Virus record (IMG/VR): IMGVR_UViG_3300006165_000026
Span: 1-30,840 of that record
From: a virus
Length of the DNA stretch: 30,840 nt
Strand: one strand, 5' to 3'
The notes under the pieces are model-generated. The model saw nothing but the letters and a program-made list of their open reading frames with translations. It did no database searches and had not been told where the DNA came from. The position numbers and the translations under genes were made by a program. Shown one piece after another: positions 2,574 through 16,598 of this stretch. Numbering within the stretch: position 1 is the first letter of the stretch; each line of letters opens with the position of its first letter.

Positions 2574-3918
2574 TTTAGATAGAATTTTAAAACTTGCTGG
2601 CCATGGCACAAGCAGAGCTCAAAGCCAGTCAAGCGATAGAGAAATAACACCAGAAGCAGTAGGCGATACAGCAGAAGGCGTTTGGGCATTATGCGACGAA
2701 TTAGATTGTAGCGACCATCCAGTATTTAACGAATTAGTTCGTTATTTAGATGGCGACACACTTCAAGACTTTGTAGCAGACTTTAGACGTCATAACGAAA
2801 TGCCAGAAAACCCAGAAATGGAATCTGTTGATCCTGAAGATGAAGATGAAAATGATGATTTGTTTAAAGATGACGAGTTTACTGACATGGATGATGAAGA
2901 TGAAGAAGAATTAAAAAAGCATTTTAATGAAGAGCCAAACGAAGGCAATGCTTTCTCAGGCGCACAAGTTGGTAAGCACAAAGGCGAAAAGTTTAAAGTA
3001 GCTGGTAAAGAATACACAAAAGAAGAAGACATGGTAGAAGGCACTTGGGCAGTTCCAGAAACTCCTGAGCAAATTGAAAAGCTAAAAGAAATAATGTCAC
3101 AACCTTTACCTTGCGGTGAAGACGGTGATGGTGCTGCAGATGTAATGTACGGCATTTTAGGTGACGACGAATTATTTGATGAGTTTCATCAAATGTCAGT
3201 AGACTTAGGTCCTGACACAGATTGTAGACCAGCTATTCAAGCTAGACTTGTTGAACTAGGACTTATGGATCAACCAGAAGCAGAAGAAATGACAGAAGCA
3301 TCTGGCGTATGTGAAGCATGCGGATGTCAAATTGACAATCCTAAACCAGGTTGCGAATGTACACATGATTCACATGATGCAGCTGGATCACATTGGGTAG
3401 CAGAATCAATATCTGATGAAGCTAAAGAGAAAGCACAGGACAGAGCAAAAAACTACGAATCACCACGCGGTGAGAAGAAGAAGAAAGTTTCTGTAGCAAA
3501 GGCACCATGGGATAAAGAAGATTTAGATGAAGCACAAAGTCCAGCACAGAAAGCAGCGTTTGCAAAAATGCTAGCTTCTAAAGGTGGAAAAAAAGCAGAT
3601 GATGCTGATGAAGATGAATCTAAAGATAAAGAAGATTTAGAAGAGTCTCCAACAATGGACACTACACAGTTAATTACACTTATGAAGAACTCAGGTTTAT
3701 CAGAAGAGAAAATTAAAACAAAATTAGACGAATGGGCAAATACTCCAGATGGAGCTGCTGAAGAAGCAGAAACATCACATGGTGACCCATATGAATATGC
3801 ACAGAGTGTAAATTTAAGTCTTAAACGTTACTTAGATGCAGAAGACATGAAAGTAGGCTTAAAAGAGCATACAGTTGATGGTATCAAAGAAGCATATAAC
3901 AAAGCAAAAAATAAATAA
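2566..3918 (+). CDS. Large acidic protein with a cysteine cluster, probably virion-associated
   Basis: The 450-residue product is strongly acidic and modular. Residues 1-13 hold an LDRILKLAG motif. Residues 36-80 form a small helical module (EGVWALCDELDC...LVRYLDGDTLQDFVADF). Residues 84-123 are low-complexity D/E. Residues 193-233 form a second module (YGILGDDELFDEF...RLVELGL). A cysteine cluster follows at C249, C252, C254, C263 and C265 with H267, H270 and H276 nearby, which could bind zinc. The region from about 300 to 370 is lysine- and acid-rich, and the C-terminus is helical. I recall similar modules in virion proteins of marine T4-like phages but cannot assign a function. A strong terminator follows, making this the last gene of its unit. 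Confidence 0.65.
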   Translation: MSDLDRILKLAGHGTSRAQSQSSDREITPEAVGDTAEGVWALCDELDCSDHPVFNELVRYLDGDTLQDFVADFRRHNEMPENPEMESVDPEDEDENDDLFKDDEFTDMDDEDEEELKKHFNEEPNEGNAFSGAQVGKHKGEKFKVAGKEYTKEEDMVEGTWAVPETPEQIEKLKEIMSQPLPCGEDGDGAADVMYGILGDDELFDEFHQMSVDLGPDTDCRPAIQARLVELGLMDQPEAEEMTEASGVCEACGCQIDNPKPGCECTHDSHDAAGSHWVAESISDEAKEKAQDRAKNYESPRGEKKKKVSVAKAPWDKEDLDEAQSPAQKAAFAKMLASKGGKKADDADEDESKDKEDLEESPTMDTTQLITLMKNSGLSEEKIKTKLDEWANTPDGAAEEAETSHGDPYEYAQSVNLSLKRYLDAEDMKVGLKEHTVDGIKEAYNKAKNK

Positions 3919-11309: not shown

Positions 11310-12188
11310 ATGTCGAAAACAATGCAACTTAAGAAAGCTCGTAAAGATCGTAAAGGCGAGACAATTATTGAAGTACTTCCAAATAACGTTGTAGACAATC
11401 CCAAAGAAACAGACGCTCAGATTATTGAACGTATGCGTGAACGTTTCCAAATACTAGACGATATGACACAAGCATCAATTGATGGTGTTGTACGTGGTAT
11501 GGTTGTAACGGGTCCTCCAGGAGTTGGTAAGTCATATGGTGTTGAACAAGTTCTAGAAAAGAATAGTTTGTTTGATGTCCTTGCTAACAATAAATTACGT
11601 TTTGAAGTTATTAAAGGTGCTAGTAGTGCAATTGGTTTGTACAAAGTACTTTACAATAATGCAGACAAAAACAGTGTTCTTGTGTTAGATGATTGTGATA
11701 CAGTATTGTATGATGAGACATCGCTTAACTTGCTAAAGGCAGCACTTGACTCATGTAAGAAGCGTAAGCTATGCTGGAATACAGATAGTGCATTACTACG
11801 TAGGGAAGGTATTCCAGATACTTTTGAATTCCAAGGTAGTGTAATTTTTATTACTAACCTTAAGTTTGATAATGTACGTGGTAAAATTAAAGATCACTTA
11901 GCGGCAATCATGTCACGTTGTCATTACTTAGATCTTACAATGGATACTACACGTGAAAAAGTATTACGTTGTAAGCAGATTGTTGCAGATGGCATGCTTA
12001 ATGAGTATGACTTTACAGCAGAAGAAGAAACAGACATAATGGACTTTATGATTAGTAACAAAGAAAAGATGCGTGAAATATCATTGCGTATGGTTACTAA
12101 ATTAGCAGACTTGAAAAAGAGCTTCGGTTCTGAGAAGTGGAAACGTACTGCAGAAGTTACATGTATGCGTAGGGTTGCTGTTGTATAG
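11310..12188 (+). CDS. AAA+ ATPase of unknown role
   Basis: The 292-residue P-loop ATPase has Walker A GPPGVGKS at residues 68-75, Walker B VLVLDDCD at about 123-130, a sensor-1-like segment VIFITNLKFDN at about 178-188, and a following region with an arginine (IMSRCHYLDL) in the place of an arginine finger. The C-terminal 75 residues are helical, like an AAA+ lid. It is shorter than the T4 clamp-loader gp44 (319 residues) and lacks clear clamp-loader signatures, so I do not call it gp44. It has its own promoter with a spacer palindrome, and a strong terminator ends the unit, so it is transcribed as a single gene next to uvsW. Similar ATPases are known in marine T4-like phages without defined function. 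Confidence 0.85.
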   Translation: MSKTMQLKKARKDRKGETIIEVLPNNVVDNPKETDAQIIERMRERFQILDDMTQASIDGVVRGMVVTGPPGVGKSYGVEQVLEKNSLFDVLANNKLRFEVIKGASSAIGLYKVLYNNADKNSVLVLDDCDTVLYDETSLNLLKAALDSCKKRKLCWNTDSALLRREGIPDTFEFQGSVIFITNLKFDNVRGKIKDHLAAIMSRCHYLDLTMDTTREKVLRCKQIVADGMLNEYDFTAEEETDIMDFMISNKEKMREISLRMVTKLADLKKSFGSEKWKRTAEVTCMRRVAVV

Positions 12189-14917: not shown

Positions 14918-15589
14918 ATGTTTAAATGTGAATACTGTTCTAAAACATTCAAGAAAGAGAATACACTAGTTGTTCATTTATGTGAACAGAAGCGTAGGCA
15001 CATGCAAAAAGACGAAAAGCATGTACAACTTGGTTTTAGAGGTTATCAGTTATTCTATAAAATAGGAACAAATGCAAAGAATGAAAAAAGCTACCAGGAG
15101 TTTGCAAAAAGTCAATATTATATTGCGTTCTGTAAGTATGGTTATTATTGTAGGGACATTGGTATTGATGATGTACCGTCTTACACAACTTGGCTATTAA
15201 AGAATTCAATAAGATTAGACCATTGGTGTAGAGATAAGCATTTTGCGGCTTGGATGAAAGAACGACAAAACAACGAATCGTGTGAAAGAGGTGTTGAGCG
15301 TACTGTATTGTTTTTACAGAAGTGGGCAGAAGAAAACAACACAACATATAATACATACTTTCATACAATAGCACCAGCACTTGCAGTATTTCATATATGC
15401 AGTGGCAAAATTAGTCCGTGGGTATTGTTTACAAGTACAGCGGCACAAGATTTAATTGATAACATGAGTGGCGAACAACTAAAAATGATAACAGATTATT
15501 TAGATGTTGATTATTGGCAACGTAGAATGAATGTCAATCCACAGGATGGTAGATTTGTAACAGAAATTATGGAGCAAATGAAAATATGA
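14918..15589 (+). CDS. Protein with N-terminal C2H2-like zinc finger, unknown function
   Basis: The 223-residue protein opens with FKCEYCSKTFKKENTLVVH: C4-x2-C7-x12-H20, with H28 or C22 completing the site. The spacing to the last ligand (seven residues to H28) is wider than the classic three to five. The remaining 190 residues are helical and rich in aromatic residues, with conserved-looking DHWCRDKHF and ISPWVLFTS stretches. Nucleic-acid or protein binding by the finger is likely. Related proteins are known to me only as uncharacterised products of marine T4-like phages. Its stop overlaps the start of a 30-residue membrane peptide (ATGA). Confidence 0.72.
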   Translation: MFKCEYCSKTFKKENTLVVHLCEQKRRHMQKDEKHVQLGFRGYQLFYKIGTNAKNEKSYQEFAKSQYYIAFCKYGYYCRDIGIDDVPSYTTWLLKNSIRLDHWCRDKHFAAWMKERQNNESCERGVERTVLFLQKWAEENNTTYNTYFHTIAPALAVFHICSGKISPWVLFTSTAAQDLIDNMSGEQLKMITDYLDVDYWQRRMNVNPQDGRFVTEIMEQMKI

Positions 15590-15678
15590 TATGGTCATTG
15601 ATTTATATATTAGCATGTTTTGTATTACCAGTATATATGTTATATAAAATGGATAAGGAAGACCCAAATGATAGTTAA
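15586..15678 (+). CDS. 30-residue single-span membrane peptide
   Basis: The ATG at 15586 overlaps the TGA of the zinc-finger gene (ATGA) and the frame ends at TAA 15676-15678, overlapping the start of the next gene. The product is MIWSLIYILACFVLPVYMLY followed by KMDKEDPNDS: a hydrophobic span at residues 2-20 and a short charged tail. Overlaps at both ends fit translational coupling in a packed operon. No strong SD is seen. The size is close to the lower limit, so it could be a chance ORF, but the clean span-then-charged-tail pattern and exact junctions argue for a gene. It is too short for most gene finders. Confidence 0.55.
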   Translation: MIWSLIYILACFVLPVYMLYKMDKEDPNDS

Positions 15679-16252
15679 CACAGATATTGACATTGATGTA
15701 GCTAATAGAGATAAGCTATTAAACCTTATTAACGGCACACCTGCAATGATTGCTCGCGAACATAAGCAAGTAAAACATAACACTGGTGTGTACTTCCATG
15801 AAATACCAAGTAATCCTTTTAATGGACTTAGCACAATAGATCATAAAGAAGCAGAGTCTATGGGTTACTTTAAAATTGATGTTATTAACGTTGGATTATA
15901 TAAATCTATTGATACTAAGAAGAAGCTAGATGATTTGCTTGCAATGGATCCTATGTGGGAGTTACTAGAACATCGAGAAGTAGTAGAACAATGTTTCCAC
16001 ATACATAAGCACTTTGATATTATTAATACAATGAAGCCTACTAGTGTAGAACAGCTAGCGGCAGTGCTTGCAGTAATCAGACCGGCGAAGCGTCACTTAC
16101 TTAATAAGGGTTGGGACGCTATTAACGCTGATGTATGGGTTAAACCTAGCACAGATGAATACTTTTTTAAAAAAGCACATGCTCACGCATATGCAGTTGC
16201 TATAGTATTGCAATTAAATATGTTAGCTAGTGGTTTTTCTTTACAAGGTTAA
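15668..16252 (+). CDS. DnaE-like mini-protein (palm/fingers motifs of DNA polymerase III alpha)
   Basis: The 194-residue product carries, in order, segments resembling bacterial DnaE. TDIDIDVANRDKL (residues 5-17) recalls the DnaE PD[FI]D[VI]DF...R block with the first catalytic aspartates. KHNTGVYFHE (36-45) recalls KHAGGV. ESMGYFKIDVINVGLY (63-78) recalls AGLVKFDFLGLRTL, which carries the third aspartate (D71 here). IINTMKPTSVEQLAAVLAVI (118-137) with RPAKR recalls L..L.P...EDMIALVALFRPGP. FFKKAHAHAYAVAIV (166-180) recalls GFNKSHSAAYALVSY. E. coli DnaE is 1160 residues, so this is an extreme reduction. ATG 15668 with AAGGAAG nearby is preferred to an upstream GTA-preceded extension. It ends overlapping a convergent gene by 26 nt. 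Confidence 0.6.
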   Translation: MIVNTDIDIDVANRDKLLNLINGTPAMIAREHKQVKHNTGVYFHEIPSNPFNGLSTIDHKEAESMGYFKIDVINVGLYKSIDTKKKLDDLLAMDPMWELLEHREVVEQCFHIHKHFDIINTMKPTSVEQLAAVLAVIRPAKRHLLNKGWDAINADVWVKPSTDEYFFKKAHAHAYAVAIVLQLNMLASGFSLQG

Positions 16253-16598
16253 TACTACGTCTTTTAATCCGCTTGGTGATGCTGTTGCTTAGTCTTACTT
16301 CTGGTCCTACAATAACTTCCATTTGTTTTACATTAAAACTTTGAATTGCGTATTGGTAATTCCATCTATTAAGTAATGCAATGTTGATGGGTAATTTTCT
16401 ATTCGTTTCCCACCACCATTCTTCGCCTAATTCCAAGAACTTAATTCTCTCTTGGGTATCAGTTAAGCGATCGTACACATATAAGCTAGCAACATGGTTA
16501 TCTATATTTTGGATAATCCCAAGGTATTCGTTTCCGGCATATGCTATGACAGTTAAGAATGGATATTCGTCTAATAGTTTCTGATGTTTTGTTTGCAT
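16227..16598 (-). CDS. Only minus-strand gene; unknown protein
   Basis: The 123-residue protein, MQTKHQKLLDEYPFLTVIAY and onward, has a beta-rich N-terminal half (GNEYLGIIQNIDNHVASLYV), a WWWETNRKLPINI segment (about residues 60-72) and a basic C-terminus (ITKRIKRRSINLVKKNH). I remember similar proteins in marine T4-like phages, with the WWWE(S/T)NR signature, of unknown function. The basic tail could contact nucleic acid. It converges on the DnaE-like gene, overlapping its 3' end by 26 bp, so antisense transcripts could form. A minus-strand ATAAATAG box lies immediately before its ATG. It is not a shadow ORF: no competing + strand gene covers most of it. Confidence 0.75.
   Translation of the reverse strand: MQTKHQKLLDEYPFLTVIAYAGNEYLGIIQNIDNHVASLYVYDRLTDTQERIKFLELGEEWWWETNRKLPINIALLNRWNYQYAIQSFNVKQMEVIVGPEVRLSNSITKRIKRRSINLVKKNH

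Follow-up and report, generated by a model that had tools for sequence, protein, structure and literature searches.

Iyer et al. 2021 (Viruses 13:63, PMC7824862) described, in the available part of their text and for jumbo phages of group 2.2, a minimal DNA polymerase III alpha (Pol III alpha) that is split over two proteins encoded by distant genes. The split Pol III alpha accompanies a family B polymerase, the other Pol III domains are absent, and the authors suggested a role in one-strand synthesis or repair and a likeness of the minimal form to early Pol III evolution; the same part of the paper presents this as a prediction without experiment. Together with the accessible passages of the CBB paper, which report a truncated alpha subunit of 172 aa (PMC5259590), and of the Atu_ph07 paper, which note alpha and epsilon (PMC6102473), this makes the split system already known as a prediction. 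A truncated C-family core, which the first-pass annotation of the DNA analysed here had called new to it, is thus not new in print. A related count comes from the accessible part of Weinheimer and Aylward 2022 (PMC9123017): in one cluster of jumbo phages, some of them marine, 51.9% have PF07733, a figure that may take in full-length DnaE too. Our literature search, with subscription papers and preprints outside its scope, found no activity test of the split pair; in the available text, the terms 'polymerase III' and 'DNA polymerase' are absent from the main text of a 2026 jumbo-phage review (PMC13282480), and a 2026 survey of bacterial polymerases (PMC12926913) has no split phage enzyme under 'split', 'phage' or 'truncated'. 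Several points presented below were not found in print in the parts of these sources that were available: the exact joint between the halves, the active site at the level of residues (with its steric gate), the loss of the thumb, adjacent genes in one lineage (L334), independent structural models for each half, and the clade that the window represents. Some of them may be shown in Figure 3b of Iyer et al.

The window, by which we mean the whole stretch of 30,840 nucleotides of the IMG/VR record IMGVR_UViG_3300006165_000026, is a fragment of a T4-like phage genome. Its gene content is T4-like, with a terminase, a weak gp32-like match, a UvsX/RecA-like protein, a UvsW-type helicase (phrog_16; PF04851), a primase and a DnaB-like helicase, and the gene under study lies among replication genes (the UvsW-type helicase, primase and DnaB-like helicase). 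By our own matching, PHROG 11778 is the C half and PHROG 11127 the N half of the split enzyme of Iyer et al. The system of Iyer et al. and that of the relatives of the window are alike in consisting of two small proteins from distant genes, an NTP-binding N half and a metal- and template-binding C half. Iyer's phages also carry a family B polymerase, which the relatives of the window have as well, and UvsW, represented on the window by the UvsW-type helicase. Unlike Iyer's phages, the window is an uncultured fragment, and no N half (N-piece) is present on its 30.8 kb. We consider it quite probable that the window protein is the C half (C-piece) of a two-gene minimal Pol III alpha, contributing the three metal-binding aspartates, K69 and trimmed steric-gate fingers, and that the halves assemble.

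The window protein is a relative of Pol III alpha

The product of the open reading frame is genuinely homologous to Pol III alpha, with five motifs in collinear order (Table 1). The ATG at its head is preceded by AAGGA 8 bases upstream. Since relatives differ in the residues ahead of this ATG, translation likely starts there and not at TTG 15620. The match to phrog_11778 ('DNA polymerase' in PHROGs) has an E-value of 2.3e-62 and covers residues 4-187 of 194. Block equivalences were taken from an alignment of the C-piece family with E. coli DnaE, and this alignment bears out the five collinear DnaE motifs that the first-pass annotation had read from the letters of the 194-residue frame. Of the aspartates that it had set against the E. 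coli catalytic triad, D6, D8 and D71 stand, and D10 is the counterpart of D405, outside the triad.

Table 1. Features of the window around the C-piece gene, with the equivalent positions in E. coli DnaE.
Feature	Position	Strand	Remarks
C-half gene	15668..16252	+	194 aa; phrog_11778; ATG at 15668, stop ends at 16252
TDIDID block	15668..15715	+	MIVNTDIDIDVANRDK = E. coli DnaE 396-411; D6 = D401, D8 = D403, D10 = D405
KHNTGV block	15773..15790	+	E. coli KHAGGV, 510-515; H37 = H511
GYFKID(V) block	15863..15883	+	E. coli about 550-559; K69 = K553, D71 = D555 (third metal ligand)
Fingers block, SVEQLAAVLAVIRP	16043..16084	+	E. coli 627-640; R138 = R639
FKKAHAHAYA(V) block	16166..16198	+	E. coli about 756-767; H171 = H760, Y175 = Y764
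AAA ATPase gene	11310-12188	+	phrog_1250
Gene upstream of the C-piece	14918-15589	+	phrog_11058
Small ORF	15586-15678	+	30 residues; overlaps the C-piece start codon
Gene downstream of the C-piece	16227-16598	-	phrog_11637 (function unknown); overlaps the final 26 bases of the C-piece gene

As a single sequence, the window protein matched no Pfam and no NCBIfam family, and its best match among PDB sequences was the unrelated SPT6 (0.64), which is what a fortuitous resemblance of motifs would give. A chance origin nevertheless has next to no probability. In hhalign, the 56-row C family scored 64.0 (E 1e-7) against six DnaE proteins; none of 100 column-shuffled controls exceeded 27.8, and the reversed alignment reached 18.8. 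Against PDB sequences at E<=10, nine of nine matches of the 56-row profile were Pol III alpha, the best at 2.1e-4. The DxD, third-aspartate and KxHAxxY blocks were collinear in them, and the predicted fold, described below, matches as well. An earlier 21-row profile had returned the same nine Pol III alpha sequences at 0.12-0.72. The comparison with Pol III alpha profiles that the first-pass annotation had proposed thus gave a match above chance, and the homology is visible at the level of the family, since the profiles of the family match DnaE and the window sequence on its own matches neither Pfam nor NCBIfam. DNA_pol3_finger (PF17657) was matched at E<=0.05 by 32 of the 56 C family members (best 4.7e-7), the window sequence not being one of them, and any other Pfam family by at most 2 of the 56. 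The C-piece of Stenotrophomonas phage CM1 matches DNA_pol3_finger at 3.2e-5, and that of Phosso matches phrog_405, a family of full-length polymerases, at 3.2e-9.

The C-piece is a shortened version of the corresponding region. No aligned counterpart of E. coli DnaE 412-493 was found in the window protein, nor one of most of 643-752 in the C-piece, and from these two gaps we conclude that the thumb, whose limits in E. coli we take to be 433-510, has been cut out and the fingers trimmed. The GRGS nucleotide-binding element is absent from the window protein, and a Pfam search found no PHP domain in it; that PHP and thumb are lacking had been noted in the earlier annotation, with which these results agree. 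In the genomes of 10 named phages with a C-piece, PHP (PF02811) and HHH_6 (PF14579) were both found in 0 of 10, compared to 14 and 11, respectively, of 14 control genomes. The phage proteins are thus unlike bacterial DnaE (E. coli b0184, Taq, M. tuberculosis) and PolC in these absent domains, in a palm that lies in two chains, and in the two stretches missing from the C half; they are alike in having a palm with partial fingers and collinear counterparts of D401/D403/D555, GRGS and H760.

The family is common. With the window protein as query, tblastn matched 63 of 50,697 phage records, each with at least 80% query coverage and less than 60% identity, and the best 40 of these 63 are 86-490 kb long, mostly above 280 kb. 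RaK2, PBECO4, PA5oct, Atu_ph07, Phosso, XacN1 and SCTP-2 are among the matches listed, the closest named relatives among them having 46-48% identity to the window protein; the coliphage Sharanji, recorded with E. coli K-12 MG1655 as host, also has a C-piece. Three scans of IMG/VR gave at least 596, at least 585 and at least 587 confirmed relatives, and the C-piece of one uncultured contig, G002, has 80% identity to that of the window. Depositor labels for C-piece homologues vary, being DnaE-like in some records and hypothetical in others.

The N-half gene and the break inside the palm

A PF07733 search of 10 complete named phages, picked for having a C-piece, found a second small gene of about 170-180 codons in all ten. 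The N-piece that it encodes covers about positions 16-98 of the 260 in the profile and nothing further, contains GxGRGS, and in the 10 named phages ends its frame at, or at most 2 residues beyond, F[LF][NKER], which corresponds to E. coli 391-393, immediately ahead of PDFDVDF. An N-piece profile matched PDB Pol III alpha at 3.1e-4 over E. coli 317-393, reaching the last profile position; the N-piece family scored 80.6 against DnaE in hhalign, compared to a maximum of 24.6 in 100 shuffles; and two N-pieces match DnaE in Pfam and PHROG searches. A C-family core of fewer than 200 residues, as first proposed for the window, therefore holds for the palm and fingers homology and fails as a complete core, the GRGS palm element being in the second gene in 10 of 10 phages. 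A scan with the Phosso N-piece sequence alone found no N-pieces, and an alignment-based scan did find them; the contig G002 (204 kb), a close relative of the window, has one 117 kb from its C-piece.

Predicted structures place the two halves side by side on known polymerases. AF2 models of single chains were made for the window C-piece (mean pLDDT 91.9) and for an N-piece taken from contig G002 (L230; mean pLDDT 92.6). With VIA-align, 193 of the 194 residues of the C-piece model (1-194) aligned to Taq Pol III alpha 458-845 (Z 10.5, rmsd 3.3), and further alignments covered E. coli 397-785, M. tuberculosis 416-815 and 9qrn_A 967-1308; the last is titled only 'DNA polymerase' and is, judging by its numbering, PolC. 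Z-scores of the C-piece were 6.7-10.5 for polymerases and 3.7 for the next chain. The N-piece, from residue 65, 68 or 76 to 168, aligned to Taq 294-455, E. coli 279-393, M. tuberculosis 304-413 (Z 12.5) and 9qrn_A 821-964. In all four structures the N and C ranges are adjacent, without overlap and with 2-3 residues between them, and the break between the halves runs from E. coli 393 to 396/397, inside one palm domain. Foldseek also placed Pol III alpha at the top for both halves, with modest E-values of 0.0012 (C) and 0.02 (N). The first ~67 residues of the N-piece have almost no structural match among the VIA-aligned chains; we do not call them a new fold, as in profile comparison they align weakly with about E. 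coli 236-320.

In cyanobacteria, two DnaE fragments are ligated by a split intein, and here too the two sides of a DnaE break come from genes far apart, so that post-translational ligation of the halves could be considered. The ends of the open reading frames in the sequences examined refute it, and we regard it as extremely improbable: in the 10 named phages, N-piece frames run at most 2 residues beyond the joint, 0-19 open residues precede the C-piece start at 86 loci, and no intein-sized stretch exists on either side.

The distance between the N and C genes is 15-224 kb in named phages and 55-281 kb in seven uncultured contigs (17 measured). Such a separation, together with the presence of all three carboxylates in one protein, would suit a C-piece that works without a partner, either as a small nucleotidyltransferase or, against host Pol III, as decoy or inhibitor. 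We consider this improbable, given that GRGS sits in a partner found in all 10 named phages, that the partner matches exactly the stretch missing from the C-piece in VIA-align, and that one lineage outside the 17 (L334) has both halves in one gene cluster; a decoy, moreover, would not need an intact active site. In that lineage the N and C genes (L334:1739-2239 and 2995-3567) are on the same strand, 755 bases apart with two ORFs between them, in a neighbourhood that is otherwise like that of the C-piece, and the cluster follows a gene resembling the zinc-finger one described below. L334 is the only one of 404 loci in which both halves were found together, and further cases could be missed since the remaining loci have 0-10 kb of flank.

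Eighteen large uncultured contigs, ten picked for a C-piece and eight for an N-piece, were searched with both profiles. Both halves were found in 7, G002 among them, the C-piece only in 9 (90-222 kb) and the N-piece only in 2 (G013, 191 kb; G014, 359 kb), in which a laxer search found no C-piece either. The contigs with one half, all of them IMG/VR records, may be fragments. The second of the N-only contigs (locus L144) also carries a family B polymerase, and it may be a fragment, contain a diverged C-piece or represent a real loss.

No frame at the 404 loci matched both profiles at E<=1e-3 as a fused single-gene form would, a threshold at which the full-length DnaE of Streptomyces phage Caliburn itself matched the N profile only. 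Caliburn DnaE (1159 aa) is, like the split pair, a phage-encoded C-family polymerase; unlike it, it is one chain of ordinary DnaE length, and residues 8-147 of the RaK2 homologue match it weakly in tblastn (E 0.8). In Microbacterium phage Anakin (L412:2974-6325), adjacent genes of 345 and 767 codons are both annotated as DnaE-like; that break is apparently separate and lies upstream of the jumbo-phage joint.

Some features of the surroundings of the N-piece were also recorded. In RaK2 and PBECO4, the N-piece and the gp44 clamp loader are separated by three genes. In Phosso, by annotation, and in the contig G002, by eye, the neighbors of the N-piece gene include a GroES-type co-chaperonin and a gene of MazG type (L122:589-4592, L208:723-3190). 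At one locus (L132:3584-4513), the N-piece frame is 310 codons long from stop to stop, with ~140 residues ahead of the homologous part, which may be merely open frame.

Active-site conservation and a possible role

The catalytic residues of both halves are essentially invariant. Of the 183 unique C-pieces, 182 have D6, D8 and D10 (the one exception being a gap) and all 183 have H37, G40, K69, D71, R138, P139, K141, H171 and Y175, and all 111 unique N-pieces have GxGRGS with two upstream residues (R, E). Frames shorter than 150 or 140 aa, or with E over 1e-10, were excluded from these counts; part of this invariance is by construction, since some N loci were fetched with a GRGSSV pattern and some C loci with a pattern containing H171 and Y175. 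The same residues were kept in 62 of 62 C-pieces fetched otherwise (by a pattern with Y175 alone of the nine counted residues), in 12 of 12 from named phages, and in 31 of 31 N-pieces fetched without the GRGSSV pattern. E. coli R362 and S364, which we take to contact the triphosphate, fall within GRGS. By alignment, H171 is the counterpart of E. coli H760. According to the available part of PMC8485763, H760 touches the sugar of the incoming nucleotide and is presumed to be the steric gate. By simple Nei-Gojobori estimates, dN was 0.01-0.18 and dS 0.3-2.4 in the tested pairs of both genes, several dS values being near-saturated. Since every catalytic element is kept under purifying selection, the pair is most simply an enzyme. 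On the basis of these sequence comparisons, an active heterodimeric dNTP polymerase appears more likely than a decoy, and the decoy or regulator role entertained in the first-pass annotation is disfavored by the invariant metal-binding and steric-gate residues.

A family B polymerase was found in 10 of 10 named phages and in 8 of 9 uncultured contigs searched, including G002, as had been expected from T4-like phages in the earlier annotation. A DnaQ-type exonuclease was detected in 8 of the 10 named phages, at most 5 kb from the C-piece in 6 of the 10 and far from it in 2 more; in the other 2 of 10, no DnaQ-type domain was detected.

The main rival to an active pair is a non-catalytic part of the replisome, that is, an N+C complex of Pol III alpha descent that would bind DNA or nucleotide without polymerising and would serve as a structural or regulatory subunit. 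The missing thumb and PHP, the absence of HHH_6 from the 10 genomes, and the full-size family B polymerase of the relatives, which could carry out replication, all fit such a complex. A scaffold, however, would not need the metal ligands, GRGS and the steric-gate histidine, all of which are kept, and dN is well under dS; we consider a non-catalytic complex unlikely, though it deserves more weight than a C-piece acting alone.

In the reading that we prefer, the N-piece and C-piece would bind each other non-covalently and share one active site, with the N-piece gripping the phosphates of the nucleotide and the C-piece responsible for metal binding and for the template side; together they would add dNTPs to a primer end. 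Whether or not the pair is catalytically active is, in our judgement, close to evenly balanced. We give about equal weight to acceptance and rejection of the fuller proposal, in which proteins of ~168 and ~194 residues would form a non-covalent C-family polymerase without thumb or PHP, with a site shared across the interface and with discrimination against ribonucleotides, beside a gp43-type replicase. Efficient polymerisation without a thumb is doubtful. Because it has no thumb or PHP, the enzyme should be distributive, which favors a local job over bulk synthesis. The weakest step is the task itself, which may be local work beside the gp43-type family B polymerase, such as the filling of short gaps or the extension of primers or recombination intermediates; we prefer such short tasks to bulk replication, but rate this detail as less likely than not.

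Should the pair prove active, a family of replicative polymerases would be able to function with a divided palm, no thumb and an active site between subunits, and this would inform both the evolution of Pol III and the role of a second polymerase in a large group of jumbo phages. We know of no C-family DNA polymerase smaller than the N+C pair would be. The minimal form could be a model of an early Pol III stage or a reduced derivative. The 2021 prediction concerns two small proteins and is hence directly testable.

Several minor observations concern the neighbors of the C-piece gene in the window (Table 1). The AAA ATPase has a weak match to a DnaC-like helicase loader, and its slot, before the UvsW-type helicase, is taken by a DnaQ-like exonuclease in RaK2. 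The gene directly upstream of the C-piece encodes a C2H2-type zinc finger at its start (PF12171 at 9.5e-5, slightly past the cut-off), and the corresponding ORF of L334 has, by eye, a similar Cys/His stretch close to its start. The gene directly downstream of the C-piece is on the opposite strand in 10 of 11 annotated relatives; in XacN1, the opposite-strand gene comes one gene later. The product of the small ORF at the C-piece start codon has one hydrophobic stretch and ends in YKMDKEDPNDS, and similar micropeptides (Y/H-[KR]-M-N...) were seen by eye at that place in 6 of 25 relatives (L004, L006, L008, L017, L022 and L024).
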